From positions 1 through 64,000 of the forward strand of contig SVRW01000005.1 in NCBI GenBank assembly GCA_015064625.1: a stretch of 64,000 nt of DNA. The letters run 5' to 3'. This DNA comes from Oscillospiraceae bacterium (GTDB lineage: Bacteria > Bacillota > Clostridia > Oscillospirales > CAG-382). Shown here piece after piece: positions 28,212 through 34,464 of the stretch (the stretch's first letter is position 1; every line of letters starts with the position of its first letter). The position numbers and the translations under genes were made by a program. The notes below the pieces were generated by a model. It had not been told where the DNA came from and made no database searches. It saw nothing but the letters and a program-made list of their open reading frames with translations.

Positions 28212-28249
28212 TGTAAGATTTTGAAAAATCAAACGCATATATAAGTGAA
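28212..28249 (+). promoter_or_regulatory. Shared ECF-type promoter motif, copy 1 (sigma gene 1)
   Basis: TGTAAG(ATTTT) at 28212, then 27 bases, then GTGAA at 28245. The same two blocks at the same 27-base spacing occur at 30195, 31091 and 32130. The left block resembles ECF -35 elements of the TGAAACnTTT type. The rest of 28060-28326 is AT-rich and holds no gene. Confidence 0.6.
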
Positions 28250-28257
28250 TCGATTCA
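28246..28257. promoter_or_regulatory. Palindrome TGAATCGATTCA upstream of sigma gene 1
   Basis: A perfect 12-bp palindrome directly overlapping the end of the shared promoter motif, followed by AAGG. An identical copy at 32164-32175 lies upstream of sigma gene 2, but not upstream of the lipoprotein genes. Confidence 0.45.
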
Positions 28258-28326: not shown

Positions 28327-28893
28327 ATGAATGATGCTAAATTATTAAAGCTGTTACATAGCAACCCGAACAAAGGAATTGAAGAGTTAATGAATCAGTA
28401 TGCGGGCTTGGTCTATGCCGTAGTCAAAAATACTTTGGCTGATTTTGTTTGTATGTCTTCCGATATTGAGGATTGCATATCCGACACTTTCAGCGAGTTT
28501 TATTTAGAGTTATCAAAATATGACCCCAAGGAATCAAGCATAAAAACTTATCTTTGCCGTATTGCTAAAAATAACGCTATTGACCTTTGCAGAAAACGGG
28601 AAAGACAAAGAATGGACATTTCGGTGGATGATGAAGAATTAACGGTTCAATTGTCAGACGGATTTAGCGTGGAGGAAAACGTTTTAAAATTCGAATTAAG
28701 CAAAGAAGTTTTTAATGCTATAAACGCTTTGGGTGAGCCTGATTCAAGTATCATTTTCAGAAAATATTATTACGGCGAACCATCCAAGGAAATTGCCGAA
28801 AGATTAAATATGACAGTTTCAAACGTAGATACAAGAGCGTTTCGGGCTTTGAATAAATTGCGTAAAACGTTAGGAGGGAAATACGGTGAATAA
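28327..28893 (+). CDS. ECF-type RNA polymerase sigma factor 1
   Basis: 188 residues of the sigma-70 family reduced to regions 2 and 4. Region 2 holds DIEDCISDTFSEFYLELSKY and TYLCRIAKNNAIDLCRKR (about 45-100); region 4 holds DSSIIFRKYYYGEPSKEIAERL and the helix-turn-helix MTVSNVDTRAFRALNKLRK (about 135-185). It is paralogous to 32189-32749 over its whole length. The stop overlaps the anti-sigma start by 8 bases. The upstream motif suggests autoregulation. Confidence 0.9.
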   Translation: MNDAKLLKLLHSNPNKGIEELMNQYAGLVYAVVKNTLADFVCMSSDIEDCISDTFSEFYLELSKYDPKESSIKTYLCRIAKNNAIDLCRKRERQRMDISVDDEELTVQLSDGFSVEENVLKFELSKEVFNAINALGEPDSSIIFRKYYYGEPSKEIAERLNMTVSNVDTRAFRALNKLRKTLGGKYGE

Positions 28894-29983
28894 TGATTTT
28901 AAAAGGAAAGTCAACATAAAGAAAACAATCGGAGAAGCAAATCCCGATCAGATAGAAGAATTTATAGAAAATAATAAAAAATCAAGCATTTCCGAAGAAA
29001 TGTTGAAAAATGTAAAATTAAAAGTGTATGATAAAACAAGACTTTCTCCTGTAAAGAAGAAAAATTTTAACTTTAAACTTTGGCTTCCCGCTGCAGCGTG
29101 CCTGTGCGTTGCGGTTGCGGTATCTCTGTGCTTTCAGCAGTTAAACTTTGAAAACACTACCGAAATAATTTCTAGCGAGGATACTTTGAGGTCAGAATCA
29201 ATGCCAAATAAAAGTGAAGAGGGGTCTGAAGATGTGTCTGAACAAGTTTTTGAAGACGAAATTATGAAAGGTGTAAATTGGTCAGCTGAAGAAGATGAAG
29301 AAGGACGTAAAAAGTATTTTAACTCTGTGGAGTTTTTCCTTGACAGAGAGGGAGCTTATGATCGAGCATGGGTATCTGTCACTTTGAAGAATCTAAAACC
29401 CCTTGGAACGTATACTAAGTATGGAACTTTGGTTAACGGCGGGACTCAAACTCAGATAAAAATAACAGATGAACAGTTGAGTGTTGCTACAATCTTTATA
29501 AATAAAATATATTATTTCGGTGAATTGAACGGATGTATTGAAGAAAACGAAACAGTTGAAATTTTGGTACCATTTATTGTGAAGGAAGATGAAGTGCTTT
29601 TAACATACCTTGATGACGGTTTTAAAGAAAAAAATGAAGCACATTTTTTCCCAATGACGGAAATAGGTAAAGAATATATAATCGATCTCGCTATAATGGG
29701 TAGCCGATACAAAGAAATACTTGAAGATGCTTCTGTAAACGGAACTGAACTCTGTTCACTTTTCTTTTTCCCGATGTTTTCTGACGATTTTACGAAGGTT
29801 AAAAATATAAGCGAGTTTTATTTTTTGAATTCTGTTCCTCAAGTTTTTGTTGCCGCTTATGACAGATATATAGGCGAAAAAGTAAGTCAGAATTCCTTTG
29901 AAACAAGGTATTATAGTTGTTTTAAAGATAAGGTTTATAATATTTTTGGAAAAACACCTGAAATAGATAAAGCAAACAAGTAG
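28886..29983 (+). CDS. Putative membrane anti-sigma factor 1
   Basis: 365 residues from GTG 28886, seven bases after AGGAGGG. The cytoplasmic N-terminus of about 60 residues (KKTIGEANPDQIEEFIEN) probably holds the sigma. One transmembrane helix follows (about 68-90, WLPAAACLCVAVAVSLCF), then an S/E-rich linker (about 95-130), and an extracytoplasmic domain of about 230 residues that I do not recognise. Role inferred from overlap with the sigma gene, topology and paralogy with 32746-33618; the outer domain differs from that paralogue. Confidence 0.65.
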   Translation: MNNDFKRKVNIKKTIGEANPDQIEEFIENNKKSSISEEMLKNVKLKVYDKTRLSPVKKKNFNFKLWLPAAACLCVAVAVSLCFQQLNFENTTEIISSEDTLRSESMPNKSEEGSEDVSEQVFEDEIMKGVNWSAEEDEEGRKKYFNSVEFFLDREGAYDRAWVSVTLKNLKPLGTYTKYGTLVNGGTQTQIKITDEQLSVATIFINKIYYFGELNGCIEENETVEILVPFIVKEDEVLLTYLDDGFKEKNEAHFFPMTEIGKEYIIDLAIMGSRYKEILEDASVNGTELCSLFFFPMFSDDFTKVKNISEFYFLNSVPQVFVAAYDRYIGEKVSQNSFETRYYSCFKDKVYNIFGKTPEIDKANK

Positions 29984-30081
29984 ATTGAATGTATAAAATG
30001 GAGAAACAAAATACGACAAAATAAATCTTATTAGCAAATGGGAATATTACGTTGAATGCTCATAATGAAATTTTTTCAAAA

Positions 30082-30114
30082 AACGTCCTGCGGAGAAATC
30101 CGTGGGGCGTTTTT
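30082..30114 (+). terminator. Terminator after anti-sigma gene 1
   Basis: AACGTCC-TGCGGA and TCCGTG-GGGCGTT with loop GAAA, then T run. It is nearly identical to 30978 and 32023 and related to 33641. The gap 29984-30284 otherwise holds only the promoter motif and a ribosome-binding site. Confidence 0.85.
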
Positions 30115-30194: not shown

Positions 30195-30232
30195 TGTAAG
30201 ATTTTGGGATTTTAAATGAATTATATAGTGAA
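30195..30232 (+). promoter_or_regulatory. Shared ECF-type promoter motif, copy 2 (lipoprotein 1)
   Basis: TGTAAG(ATTTT) at 30195 and GTGAA at 30228, separated by 27 bases. The sequence between is identical to copy 3 and differs from copies 1 and 4. Confidence 0.6.
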
Positions 30233-30284: not shown

Positions 30285-30968
30285 ATGAAAAAATTGATTT
30301 CAAAAATTCTCGTATGTCTTATTCTTTCTTCGCTTATTTTATCTTCCTGCGGTGCAAACGAAGATAAAGTAGAATTTAAAGAAACTGTTTCAGCGGAACG
30401 AGTTATGCAACAAGTGGAAGCAAAAGAAACCGTTTCGGAGGAACATGTTTTGCAACAAGCGGAAGTGGAAGAAATAGTTATGAAAGAATCGCTTGAAAAT
30501 AATTTAGCTGAATCTTCTACAGAAAGCATTGATAATAAAGAAAGCGGGGAATTATCCTTTTATCCACCCGATGGAGCAGAAATTGTTTACGCTGATGAAA
30601 ATTCGGTTTCTCATTATATGAATGCGTGTTATTTCAGGGGATTTTCAAATTGTATGATCGATTTTTTCGGAAACGAAAATAATGAAGTGTATTATTATGT
30701 TTGTTTTGATACTCGAAATTCTTGGCCTGGAAGCAGTGAAGTGCCAGTAGAAAAAGCACTTGAAAAATACGGGATAAAAGTGGAAGAAGTTACTCCTGCT
30801 ATATATGTGGCATACGTAACTGGGAGACAAATTATATCTCTCGAAAAAGGATTCAATGAAGACGAAGAACTCAAATATCGTTTTCTAAGGCTGTGTTGCG
30901 TAACGGAAAACTTCGTAGAAGAATGGACAACTGAGGAATATAGATGGATGAATTCGAGTGAAAATTAG
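30285..30968 (+). CDS. Lipoprotein 1 with anti-sigma-like ectodomain
   Basis: 227 residues from ATG 30285 after AAAGGAGG. Lipoprotein signal with lipobox LSSC (cysteine 22). Residues about 32-61 are two tandem 15-residue repeats (KETVSEEHVLQQAE type, exact 45-bp period at 30378-30467). The C-terminal domain (about 90-225) has VYYYVCFDTRN, YVAYVTGRQI, LEKGFNED and CCVTENFVEEW, the same set as in lipoprotein 2 and in the outer part of anti-sigma 2. I know no named family for it. Exported and membrane-tethered by inference. Confidence 0.75.
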   Translation: MKKLISKILVCLILSSLILSSCGANEDKVEFKETVSAERVMQQVEAKETVSEEHVLQQAEVEEIVMKESLENNLAESSTESIDNKESGELSFYPPDGAEIVYADENSVSHYMNACYFRGFSNCMIDFFGNENNEVYYYVCFDTRNSWPGSSEVPVEKALEKYGIKVEEVTPAIYVAYVTGRQIISLEKGFNEDEELKYRFLRLCCVTENFVEEWTTEEYRWMNSSEN

Positions 30969-30977
30969 TTTTAAGAC

Positions 30978-31010
30978 AACGCCCTGCGGAGAAATCCGCG
31001 GGGCGTTTTT
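30978..31010 (+). terminator. Terminator after lipoprotein gene 1
   Basis: AACGCCC-TGCGGA and TCCGCG-GGGCGTT around GAAA, then five T. Confidence 0.88.
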
Positions 31011-31090
31011 GCGAGAAAAGGTATTTATGATAGGTTAATTTTTATATTTTCTTGTAAAATGCAGATTTTTTATAAAAAATAATATAAAAG

Positions 31091-31128
31091 TGTAAGATTT
31101 TGGGATTTTAAATGAATTATATAGTGAA
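31091..31128 (+). promoter_or_regulatory. Shared ECF-type promoter motif, copy 3 (lipoprotein 2)
   Basis: TGTAAG(ATTTT) at 31091 and GTGAA at 31124, again 27 bases apart. The region 31040-31181 is a near copy of 30150-30284. Confidence 0.6.
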
Positions 31129-31181
31129 AGGTAAAAAGAAAGCCTGAAAACAAAACGTAAAAGGTGCAAAGGAGGCACATT

Positions 31182-31931
31182 ATGAAAAAATTGATTTCAA
31201 GAATTCTCGTATGTCTTATTCTTTCTTCGCTTTTATTAACTTCCTGCGGTGCGAACGAAGATAAAGTTGGATTTAAAGAAACTGTTTAAGCGGAACGAGT
31301 TTTGCAACAATCGGATGCCAAAGAAACCGTTTCGGAGGAACATGTTTTGCAACAAGCAGAAGCAAAAGAAATTGTTTTGAAAGAATTATCTGAAAATAAT
31401 TTAGCTGAATCTTCTACAGAAAGCATTGATAATGAAGAAAGCGGGGAATTATCTTTTTATCCACCCGATGGAGCAGAAATTGTTTATGGCGAAGATGAAG
31501 TTTCTAAGTATACAGTGGATGCTATTTTACGCGGGTTGAGCGTGTCCCGTTTTCTTGAGGAGGCGGACAATGAGGAGGCATATTATTATGTTTGCATTGA
31601 TACTCGAAATACTGATTATGGGTTATTTATGAATCAAGATTGTGACTATTCATGTTTTGACCTGATTAAAAAAGAACTTGAAAAGTATTTTACAAATGTG
31701 AAAGAATTTCCCGATTGTGTATATAGGACGAACAGCATGTATACTGCATACGTAACCAAGGAGCAAATTTCTACTCTCAAAAAAGGGTTTAGCGAAGACC
31801 CTACTACTAAGCAATTGTTCCTCGCATTATATTGCGTTCCGGAAAACTTTGTGGAAGAATGGATATATGAAAACACACATGGGTTTTACAATGGGGTAGT
31901 TGATTTTCCGCTTTGCAAAAAAAATAGTTGA
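31182..31931 (+). pseudogene. Lipoprotein 2, interrupted by one stop codon
   Basis: Paralogue of lipoprotein 1. The ATG at 31182 follows AAAGGAGG and opens the same signal peptide and lipobox (LTSC, cysteine 22). Codon 36 (31287-31289) is TAA where the paralogue has TCA, a single-base change; the frame is otherwise intact to 31931. The rest retains the repeat region and the domain with AYYYVCIDTRN, YTAYVTKEQI, LKKGFSED and YCVPENFVEEW. Reinitiation at TTG 31302 would lack the signal peptide. A recent nonsense mutation is the simplest reading; sequencing error cannot be excluded. Confidence 0.8.
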
Positions 31932-32022
31932 GCTTGGTTTATACTGTGTTTGAAACTAGTATATAAGAGTTCTTTTGGTAAGCATCTGAAACAATTATAT
32001 AAATCCTTGTATAACGCCCTGC

Positions 32023-32046
32023 GGAGAAATCCGCGGGGCGTTTTGG
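32023..32046 (+). terminator. Terminator after lipoprotein gene 2
   Basis: AACGCCC-TGCGG and CCGCG-GGGCGTT around AGAAAT (32023-32042), then TTTT. Same element as at 30978. Confidence 0.85.
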
Positions 32047-32129
32047 CGAGAAAAGGTATTTGAAAGAAGTTAATTTTTATATTTTCTTGTAAGCTATTGA
32101 TTTTTTTAATAAAAAAAGTAATATAAAAG

Positions 32130-32167
32130 TGTAAGATTTTACGATTTTTATTGAATTATATAATGAA
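32130..32167 (+). promoter_or_regulatory. Shared ECF-type promoter motif, copy 4 (sigma gene 2)
   Basis: TGTAAG(ATTTT) at 32130 and ATGAA at 32163, 27 bases apart. The TATATAATG block is only about 25 bases from the sigma ATG, so the leader would be very short. Confidence 0.6.
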
Positions 32168-32175
32168 TCGATTCA
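32164..32175. promoter_or_regulatory. Palindrome TGAATCGATTCA upstream of sigma gene 2
   Basis: Identical in sequence and position (relative to the motif) to 28246-28257. AAGGGG directly after it is the ribosome-binding site of sigma gene 2. Confidence 0.45.
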
Positions 32176-32188
32176 AGGGGATGTAAAA

Positions 32189-32749
32189 ATGGATGATACT
32201 ACGTTGTTGGAATTGTTGAAAACCAATCCCAACGTGGGAATGGAACAATTGATAAATCAGTATTCTGCTCTTATTTACACCGTTGTTAAAAACAAAATTT
32301 GTGACGTTTGCGTATCTTCCGAGGTGGAAGAATGTGTGGCAGACGTATTCAGCGAATTTTACATAGGTCTTTCAAATTATAATTCTGAAAAGTCAAGTAT
32401 TAAAGCGTATTTGTGTGCGATTGCCAATCATAAATCTGTCGATATTTATAAATCGAGGCGAAAACAAATAGATGACGTTTCTCTCGACGACGAGGAAACG
32501 CGGTTTCAACTTGGAGATGGTGAAAACGTTGAAAAAGACCTTTTGGAAAACGAACAGAGACGAAATATTTTGAAAGCCGTAAAGTCTTTAGGTGAGCCAG
32601 ATTCAAGCATAATTTTCTTGAAATTTTATTTTGGAGAACCATCTAAAGAAATAGGCAGGCGGTTAGGGTTGAGTGTTTCCAACGTTGATACTCGAACTCA
32701 CAGAGCATTGAAAAAATTAAAAGAGACGTTAGGAGCGTGGAAAAAATGA
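32189..32749 (+). CDS. ECF-type RNA polymerase sigma factor 2
   Basis: 186 residues, colinear with sigma factor 1: N-terminal LLELLKTNPNVGMEQLINQY, region 2 with EECVADVFSEFYIGLSNY and AYLCAIANHKSVDIYKSRR, region 4 with DSSIIFLKFYFGEPSKEIG and LSVSNVDTRTHRALKKLKE. Its stop overlaps the anti-sigma 2 start as ATGA. Possible cross-talk with sigma factor 1 is suggested by the shared promoter motif. Confidence 0.9.
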   Translation: MDDTTLLELLKTNPNVGMEQLINQYSALIYTVVKNKICDVCVSSEVEECVADVFSEFYIGLSNYNSEKSSIKAYLCAIANHKSVDIYKSRRKQIDDVSLDDEETRFQLGDGENVEKDLLENEQRRNILKAVKSLGEPDSSIIFLKFYFGEPSKEIGRRLGLSVSNVDTRTHRALKKLKETLGAWKK

Positions 32750-33618
32750 AAAAAAGTGTTAAAGATGCGTTTTATAAGGCTCAAGACGGGGAGCTGGACG
32801 ATTTTCTGAAAGAAATTGAGATTGAGGGAGGACTTTCCCACGAAATAACCTCAAGAATCAAAAAACGTGTTGAGGAAAAAACAGGCGTTGAGCTTGTACG
32901 AAGAAAAACCTTTTTCAAGCCTTGGGTCGCCGCTGTAGCTTGCTTGTGTATTGCAGTTGCCGTGTCTTTGAGCGTTGAATATATAAATTTTGAAAGCGAT
33001 CATGGTGTTCTGATGAGCGAAGACAACTTGCAGTCTGAAGCTGTACCAAATGTCAGCGAAGAAAATTCTGAAGAAAATTCGGAAAGCGATTTTCAATCTT
33101 CTGAAGATGTTTCCAATGATGAGTTAAAGTCATCTGAAGATGATTCTGCGGATGAAATAACTTCTTCTGAAGCTGTTTCGGACATTGTTAGTACGTCTGA
33201 CTTACAGTATTTCCCATCGGGAACATATAAAATAGTATACGGTGAAAATACTGTTCCTAAAATCGTAAATTCTGGAGAAGTTTCGGAATTCGTGAATTCA
33301 ATGTCGCTTTTTTTTGAGAGTGAAGCGACCCAAGGAGATAGTAAGGAGAATACTACTGCAGTCTATTATTACGTTTGTATTGATGTGAGAAATTCTTCGG
33401 TGTATTCAGAGGATGATTTTTTGAATGAGCTTCTGAAGTTAAGAATAAAAGCAAAGAAAATTGATTATGGCATATTTGTGTCATACGTTACTGAAAATCA
33501 AGTTAAAGCCATTGAAAAAGAATTCAATGAAGGCGATGCATTTAAAGGAATCAGACTACGATTAAGCTGTGTAGCGAAAGATTTTGTTGAAGAATGGATG
33601 ACTGAAACAAACAGATGA
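32746..33618 (+). CDS. Putative membrane anti-sigma factor 2 with lipoprotein-like sensor domain
   Basis: 290 residues from ATG 32746, ten bases after AGGAG (GTG 32737 is too close to it). A cytoplasmic region of about 55 residues is followed by one transmembrane helix (about 62-82, PWVAAVACLCIAVAVSLSV), a long S/E/D-rich stalk (about 90-150), and an outer domain with VYYYVCIDVRN, FVSYVTENQVKAIEKEFNE and CVAKDFVEEWM. That domain is homologous to lipoproteins 1 and 2, not to anti-sigma 1. The anti-sigma role is inferred from coupling and topology. Confidence 0.7.
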   Translation: MKKSVKDAFYKAQDGELDDFLKEIEIEGGLSHEITSRIKKRVEEKTGVELVRRKTFFKPWVAAVACLCIAVAVSLSVEYINFESDHGVLMSEDNLQSEAVPNVSEENSEENSESDFQSSEDVSNDELKSSEDDSADEITSSEAVSDIVSTSDLQYFPSGTYKIVYGENTVPKIVNSGEVSEFVNSMSLFFESEATQGDSKENTTAVYYYVCIDVRNSSVYSEDDFLNELLKLRIKAKKIDYGIFVSYVTENQVKAIEKEFNEGDAFKGIRLRLSCVAKDFVEEWMTETNR

Positions 33619-33640
33619 ATCAGAGTAAAATTGAGTTTAA

Positions 33641-33675
33641 AATAACGCCTTGCGTATATCTGCGGGGCGTTATTT
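33641..33675 (+). terminator. Terminator after anti-sigma gene 2
   Basis: AATAACGCC and GGGGCGTTATT with TGCG/TGCGG inner pairs, then TTT. Shorter relative of the three upstream terminators. Confidence 0.75.
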
Positions 33676-33798: not shown

Positions 33799-34464
33799 AT
33801 GTTCAATAAATTAAATTTTAAAATTTTTACTTTGTTTATCGTTTCCGTTCTATTGCTTTCATCATGTATTGAGGATGATGGGACAGAATCAAGCGGTAAA
33901 TTTTCTATGGATCCATTCTCGCAAGAGGTGAGCGTTGAAAGTGAAGAAGCTTCTGACGTCGTTTCAGAAGAAAGTGTTTCAGACAATGAATCGGATTTTT
34001 CAAAGGATGAAAACGTTTCCGAAAATGAATTTACCTCGGAAGATGAAGAAAGCTTGGACGAGGTTTCTGTTGAAACGAGCAATGGGGAAACGGCTTCAAA
34101 TAAACTACAGCTTTGTGTTCCCGATGATGAATATATGAATTTTGAATATAAAGAAGTAACGTTTGACGGAACGATAGATGGAATTATAAATGAGCTTGCG
34201 AAAGAAAAGCTGTTTTCAGAAGATGTTAAAGTCAACTCATTTGAAATTGAAGGTGATACTATCAGAATTGATCTTTCCGCAGAGTTTGGATTTGCAATTG
34301 CAACGGGAACGTTGGCTGAAAGGATGATTCTCGGTTCTTTTGTCAACACTTTAGTGTTGTATTATGACGTGAAACAGGTATACTTTACTGTTGATGGAGA
34401 TTTCTTCGATTCGGGACACGTTTATTATGATTTTCCGTTGAGCTTTACGGAAGCATTAGGTTAA
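33799..34464 (+). CDS. Lipoprotein with GerMN-like domain
   Basis: 221 residues. Signal peptide with lipobox LSSC (cysteine about 22), an S/E/D-rich stalk (about 35-105) like those of the anti-sigma proteins, and a C-terminal domain whose pattern IRIDLSAEFG, ILGSFVNTLVLYYDVKQVYFTVDGD is that of GerMN, known from sporulation and spore-germination lipoproteins. Function in this species is not known. CGGGGG serves as a weak ribosome-binding site. Confidence 0.75.
   Translation: MFNKLNFKIFTLFIVSVLLLSSCIEDDGTESSGKFSMDPFSQEVSVESEEASDVVSEESVSDNESDFSKDENVSENEFTSEDEESLDEVSVETSNGETASNKLQLCVPDDEYMNFEYKEVTFDGTIDGIINELAKEKLFSEDVKVNSFEIEGDTIRIDLSAEFGFAIATGTLAERMILGSFVNTLVLYYDVKQVYFTVDGDFFDSGHVYYDFPLSFTEALG

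Follow-up and report, generated by a model that had tools for sequence, protein, structure and literature searches.

In the genome of an uncultured, gut-type Oscillospiraceae bacterium of the CAG-382 lineage (GCA_015064625.1, 2.07 Mb), positions 1-64,000 of contig SVRW01000005.1, here called the window, contain a locus in which two extracytoplasmic function (ECF) sigma factors, each with a presumed anti-sigma factor, flank two lipoprotein genes, LP1 and LP2. We find that the C-terminal outer domain of the second anti-sigma factor, anti-sigma 2, is homologous to the C-terminal domain encoded by both lipoprotein genes, and that one promoter-like element precedes all of these transcription units. 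We propose an autoregulated ECF circuit in which the outer end of the anti-sigma factor and the lipoproteins of the circuit carry the same partner-binding domain, the sensor being a captured copy of the output; we judge the chances of this reading to be about even.

The outer domain shared by anti-sigma 2 and the lipoproteins

It was originally predicted that the C-terminal parts of anti-sigma 2, LP1 and LP2 share a series of motifs in the same order, and both alignment and genome searches confirm this. By BLASTP, anti-sigma 2 is 35% identical to LP1 over 197 amino acids (aa; E 3e-25) and 30% identical to ORF 2, the remnant of LP2 (E 1e-17); both alignments take in some of the Ser/Glu linker. 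With the 139-aa domain of anti-sigma 2 alone as query, tblastn on the whole genome returned exactly three copies, namely anti-sigma 2 itself, LP1 (43%, E 1.1e-19) and LP2 (40%, E 1.1e-10). All three known copies thus lie in the ECF locus, while the original prediction had named a domain always found away from ECF genes as a sign against it. The three-row alignment of the domain has 38 invariant columns, including YYYVC-D-RN, YVT-Q, K-F-E and CV-FVEEW in that order, and the ratio of nonsynonymous to synonymous divergence (dN/dS) between copies is about 0.3-0.44, indicating that they are under constraint.

The outer domain of anti-sigma 1 is unrelated, as had been claimed. The two anti-sigma factors are 40% identical over 119 aa (E 8e-15), but this similarity is limited to the cytoplasmic head, the transmembrane (TM) segment and the linker, and the outer part of anti-sigma 1 gave no significant match to anti-sigma 2. 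Because the heads, TM segments and linkers as well as the ECFs (54% identical) are alike and the outer parts are not, the two sigma/anti-sigma pairs are paralogues that differ by an exchange of outer domains. Both sigma factors consist of sigma-70 regions 2 and 4 only, with Sigma70_r2, Sigma70_r4_2 and TIGR02937 above cut-off, and fit the ECF models rather than sigma-I. The anti-sigma genes adjoin the sigma genes, with overlaps of 8 and 13 nt, and encode an N-terminal head, one TM segment and an outer part; the heads are conserved between both pairs and in relatives carrying other outer domains. No Pfam or NCBIfam anti-sigma model matches either head, and no RsgI model matches the anti-sigma factors; only about a third of ECFs pair with class I anti-sigma domains such as the zinc-finger type (PMC7406223). 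The presumed anti-sigma identity of both proteins rests on gene order, overlap and topology.

No sequence match of note to the shared domain was obtained in Pfam, NCBIfam, PHROG or PDB, in keeping with the earlier remark that it has no recognised name; PDB matches to DDB2 and RRN6 were dismissed as chance. Pfam gave no match to serpins (PF00079), to the RsiV-type DUF3298/DUF4163 or, at E up to 5, to the subtilisin-propeptide-like inhibitors (I9), and neither Pfam nor NCBIfam gave a match to a carbohydrate-related domain. None of the 393 other genomes of the order that were searched contains the domain, nor was it found in the plasmids and phages searched or by degenerate-pattern scans of genome and viral contig collections. 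One weak match among 99 relatives (G012, E 0.0065), sitting across from an AMP-ligase-type gene on the opposite strand, was rejected as chance. Within the genomes searched, the domain is by sequence an orphan, restricted to this lineage.

AlphaFold predicts a beta-alpha-beta-beta-alpha-beta(-alpha) core for the domain of anti-sigma 2 (pLDDT 68-85 in the core) and an identical order of elements for that of LP1 (pLDDT 70-83); both models were built on the same three-row alignment and are of modest confidence. At that confidence they share a ferredoxin-like core, and the unrelated predicted folds that had been named as evidence against a shared module were not seen. Two invariant Cys residues lie in or next to strands 1 and 4; because these strands adjoin in a ferredoxin-like sheet, a disulfide is possible in the models. 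The structural neighbours were tied at Z under 8 and include sso1404/Cas2-like proteins, ribosomal protein S6 and the propeptides of subtilisin-like proteases, whose ferredoxin-like fold the predicted core would fit. The top match of the LP1 model was the CspB prodomain (Z 5.9, root-mean-square deviation 3.1, 80 residues), and propeptide chains scored Z 4.0-6.3, level with Cas2, S6 and other weak ferredoxin-like matches. As the ferredoxin-like arrangement is common and the matches are tied, an assignment to a family on these grounds was rejected.

The original prediction counted two lipoproteins; for LP2 the homology of the domain stands, but an intact gene does not, as a stop codon interrupts it in this assembly. 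The LP2 frame from the ATG at 31182 reads MKKLISRILVCLILSSLLLTSCGANEDKVGFKETV and then meets TAA (31287-31289) where LP1 has TCA; the stop lies 13 codons past the lipobox Cys, downstream of an LP1-like signal peptide and lipobox, and the open reading frame (ORF) remaining after it starts at TTG 31302 and is without a signal peptide. The stop may mark a recent loss, may be a variant, or may come from an error in the assembly; the domain copy itself is without visible decay (dN/dS 0.38 against anti-sigma 2). The LP1 start is most likely the ATG at 30285, with AAGGAGG upstream. Between the two genes, identity in 60-nt windows is 85-100% across the promoter region, signal peptide and linker, with a synonymous divergence (dS) of 0.15 in the coding part, but only about 52-65% across the domain, with a dS of about 1.0. 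Since synonymous sites differ sevenfold, protein selection alone does not explain this contrast: either the domain was swapped while promoter, signal and linker stayed in place as a common cassette, or homogenisation made the cassettes alike.

Promoter element and outer domains in related genomes

The locus has four transcription units, ECF1-anti-sigma 1, LP1, LP2 and ECF2-anti-sigma 2, and a strong hairpin closes each of them (z -5.9 to -7.1). Each begins with a degenerate 38-nt element of constant length, TGTAAGATTTT-N15-T(W)5-A-R-TGAA, which we take as a shared ECF promoter. The presence of this same element before lipoproteins and ECF operons with separate terminators strengthens what had been only a presumed regulon. 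In the whole genome the element has five exact matches (ECF1, LP1, LP2, ECF2 and a further lipoprotein, LP3), all before ECF operons or lipoproteins, and the reversed pattern used as a control has 0. The fifth element, at C38:70557 (C-numbers are contigs of this genome), lies ~65 nt before LP3; it is unlinked to the locus and, because it has a spacer of its own, local duplication does not explain it. LP3 (C38:69276-70594; L030 and L031, where L-numbers denote extracted loci and G-numbers relatives) is a lipoprotein of 413 residues with two tandem copies, 52% identical, of another unnamed domain.

With one mismatch allowed, an element is found at C33:79721, 76 nt before the start of the first of two tandem serpin lipoproteins (C33:77091-79538; L069:5083-7683, minus strand), which are the only serpins of the genome; in other genomes, the same promoter was not found upstream of serpins. 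With two mismatches, an element at C31:239827 precedes a third ECF/anti-sigma pair. At three mismatches, where chance matches also occur, an element at C41:7221 lies between an anti-sigma gene and the gene for a Cys-cluster protein. This region (L071, C41:1-11000) holds three ECF/anti-sigma pairs in 11 kb, and the promoter-like element stands before the Cys-cluster, membrane-anchored protein, whose gene is followed by one of the radical-SAM activase type. A perfect palindrome, TGAATCGATTCA, marks the promoter's 3' end in the two ECF operons and is missing at LP1 and LP2; it is possibly an operator that separates the sigma genes from their targets.

In other Clostridia, metagenome-assembled genomes with the same ECF group encode anti-sigma factors that resemble one another in the head but differ greatly in the outer part. 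Among serpins, 65 distinct domains from 63 genomes of the family were placeable. Of these, 23 serve as the outer domain in anti-sigma factors whose gene overlaps or immediately follows an ECF gene, 17 are encoded by genes of their own, most of them for lipoproteins, further down an ECF/anti-sigma operon, and 25 fit neither class; one of the 25 (L114) has an anti-sigma head at the contig start. The best tree of these serpins has nine changes between the fused and the non-fused state, six of them forced by the starred branches; the tree was made by a quick method and has some long branches, so that the number of changes is approximate. The inhibitory hinge motif (GTKAAAAT type) is kept in all 17 operon serpins and in 19 of 24 fused serpins; the five fused serpins without it (L157, L158, L159, L160 and L163) are possibly pseudo-inhibitors that serve as sensors only.

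The LP3 domain is found in similar settings: in G017 it serves as the outer domain in an anti-sigma factor whose gene immediately follows an ECF gene (E 1.6e-18), and in three genomes it is the C-terminal part of serpin lipoproteins in ECF operons. It also occurs in large dockerin-like proteins of relatives; Pfam did not bear out the idea that it belongs to a named family of protease inhibitors. To judge from these placements, outer domains such as serpins and the LP3 domain have in this family moved repeatedly between anti-sigma factors and ECF-operon lipoproteins. Further cases of such exchange are anti-sigma factors that have different heads on the same outer domain (26-29% identity), as in L035:2746-4230 and L036:6561-8033, and in L062:4673-5938 and L035:4955-6373. 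In L037 and L038, the outer part of an ECF anti-sigma factor begins TVTLDVNPSIEI, by eye like the middle region of RsgI; the L037 frame is split into two ORFs.

Proposed circuit and competing explanations

Because outer domains repeatedly trade places in relatives, we think it simpler to regard the lipoprotein as the output and the sensor as its captured copy. In the circuit that we propose, the head of anti-sigma 2 would hold ECF2 until an outside partner engages the shared domain, upon which the anti-sigma factor would be released or degraded. Freed ECF2 would then transcribe its own operon and LP1, as well as LP2 if this gene is intact in other strains; membrane-tethered LP1 would bind the same partner through the same domain and neutralise or remove it, so that the signal falls and the circuit is homeostatic. 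We infer that ECF2 acts on the promoter, that one partner is bound by both domain copies and that the anti-sigma factor is set free in this way; for the partner, a secreted protease or another hydrolase is our guess from analogy, and in the serpin systems it would be a serine protease. More tentatively, and with some doubt, we speculate that gut-type Clostridia have a family of ECF circuits that sense proteases, in which the outer domain would be an inhibitor module (serpin, LP3 domain or orphan), protease attack or capture would free the sigma factor, and the regulon would display the same inhibitor. In that case, the orphan domain would represent a new family of inhibitor folds specific to its lineage.

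Several observations weigh against the proposed circuit. Only one genome is known to have the domain, in three copies of which one lies inside a broken gene, and no other locus of the ECF group has a second copy of its sensor domain in a neighbouring ORF up to 6 kb away. LP1 may also depend on more than ECF2, as ECF1 probably recognises this promoter too. A protease as partner is suggested by an analogy with serpins and by weak matches of the predicted ferredoxin-like fold.

The nearest precedent is the sigma-I/RsgI system of Clostridium thermocellum, where the glycoside hydrolase (GH) 10 sensor of RsgI6 is 57% identical to Xyn10D and sigma-I6 activates the xyn10D promoter (PMC4711584). There as here, the C-terminal outer module of a membrane anti-sigma factor is homologous to proteins of the regulon (here defined by promoter only), the sigma operon is autoregulated (here, putatively so), and several paralogous pairs carry different outer modules; the fused serpins without a hinge can likewise be compared with RsgI6, whose GH10 module is weakly active. 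The systems differ in that sigma-I is not an ECF, whereas our locus has no RsgI domain, an orphan outer module, and lipoproteins instead of cellulosomal enzymes as outputs. In Bacillus subtilis, the ECF sigma factor SigV likewise has a membrane anti-sigma factor, RsiV, with an outer domain to which the inducing enzyme binds and by which it is inhibited; RsiV both senses and inhibits lysozyme, so that one outer domain can do both (PMC5014341). Unlike in that system, DUF3298/DUF4163 is unmatched here and lipoproteins carry the sensor domain. Secreted protease inhibitors of the serpin type are known from Clostridia: the siropins of Eubacterium siraeum are gut Firmicute serpins that act on host proteases (PMC5127057), and PinA is a serpin of C. 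thermocellum (cited in PMC12484212). The present genome too has serpin lipoproteins, one behind a near-match promoter, but the shared domain is not a serpin. A literature search, with most subscription journals outside it, returned no description of serpins as anti-sigma outer domains, which is not proof of novelty.

The recurrence of this design with serpins in related bacteria suggests that the sensor derives from a copy of the very defence under its control. The ligands of anti-sigma outer domains are mostly unknown; if outer domains and regulon products are copies of each other, the regulon tells what the sensor senses. The serpin-type systems provide a testable class of ligand, serine proteases, and a trigger, the large conformational change of a serpin on cleavage. 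If the protease reading is true, gut Clostridia sense outside proteases with the inhibitors they deploy, which bears on the balance of host and microbial proteases in the gut.

An unlikely alternative is local recombination with no functional link, in which duplication swapped the domain, the promoter was merely copied along, and anti-sigma 2 and the lipoproteins now differ in task. The mosaic of a near-identical cassette and a diverged domain in LP1 and LP2, which points to segments moving separately, would fit such a history, as would the broken LP2 and the terminators and leaders repeated at the locus; however, the domain copies are still under purifying selection, a copy of the promoter with another spacer is found upstream of an unlinked lipoprotein, and the serpin and LP3 domains show the same exchange between sensor and lipoprotein in other genomes.

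Two further explanations grant a functional link, and to each we assign a small probability. In one, the domain is a module that binds a small ligand or a polymer, in the manner of the RsgI proteins that sense carbohydrates, and LP1 brings in or traps this ligand so that it can be used. Sensors and regulon of the C. thermocellum sigma-I/RsgI systems do share carbohydrate-binding or GH modules (PMC4711584), and a ferredoxin-like core fits many binding roles, but the domain lacks a carbohydrate-related match and the four transcription units contain no enzyme or transport genes. In the other, the lipoproteins titrate the inducing ligand or bind the sensor domain, only tuning or shutting off the circuit and having no protective role of their own. 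The common domain, membrane side and promoter agree with this, but nothing is specific to it, and many of the corresponding lipoproteins in relatives are serpins whose hinge is intact (as it is in all of the operon serpins), which looks effector-like. Of the original interpretation, we therefore retain the exported module shared by a sensor and tethered lipoproteins; for the decoy and feedback roles attached to it there is no separate evidence, and of the two lipoprotein genes one is broken.

Features of the locus

Features of the ECF locus, with window coordinates and the basis of each assignment
Feature	Position	Strand	Basis or remark
ECF-type promoter element before ECF1, TGTAAGATTTT-N15-TATATAAGTGAA	28212..28249	+	exact match of degenerate 38-nt pattern
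Palindrome TGAATCGATTCA, overlapping 3' end of ECF1 promoter	28246..28257	.	2 copies in window vs 0.01 expected
ECF1 sigma factor	28327..28893	+	Pfam Sigma70_r2, Sigma70_r4_2; TIGR02937
Anti-sigma 1 (presumed): head and one TM segment like anti-sigma 2, unrelated outer domain	28886..29983	+	overlaps ECF1
Hairpin terminator 3' of anti-sigma 1	30079..30114	+	-24.1 kcal/mol, z -7.1
ECF-type promoter before LP1	30195..30232	+	exact 38-nt pattern match
Lipoprotein 1 (LP1): signal peptide, lipobox LSSC, acidic Ser/Glu linker, domain	30285..30968	+	ORF; lipobox read directly
Shared domain, copy 1 (LP1)	30552..30965	+	BLASTP, alignment, tblastn
Hairpin terminator 3' of LP1	30978..31007	+	-26.2 kcal/mol, z -6.2
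ECF-type promoter before LP2	31091..31128	+	exact 38-nt pattern match
Lipoprotein 2 (LP2) gene, broken by TAA 31287-31289	31182..31931	+	reading frame, LP1 comparison
Shared domain, copy 2 (inside interrupted LP2)	31449..31892	+	BLASTP, alignment, tblastn
Hairpin terminator 3' of LP2	32013..32043	+	-26.1 kcal/mol, z -5.9
ECF-type promoter before ECF2	32130..32167	+	exact 38-nt pattern match
Palindrome TGAATCGATTCA, second copy, at ECF2 promoter	32164..32175	.	window motif count
ECF2 sigma factor	32189..32749	+	Sigma70_r2, Sigma70_r4_2, TIGR02937; 54% identical to ECF1
Anti-sigma 2 (presumed): cytoplasmic head, TM segment (about residues 62-80), Ser/Glu linker, C-terminal shared domain	32737..33618	+	overlaps ECF2
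Shared domain, sensor copy, last ~139 residues of anti-sigma 2	33199..33615	+	BLASTP, alignment, tblastn, AlphaFold models
Hairpin terminator 3' of anti-sigma 2	33640..33675	+	-20.3 kcal/mol, z -6.7

Directly past the anti-sigma 2 terminator lies the gene of a GerMN-domain (PF10646) lipoprotein (33799-34464), which has a similar Ser/Glu linker and no copy of the promoter element upstream.

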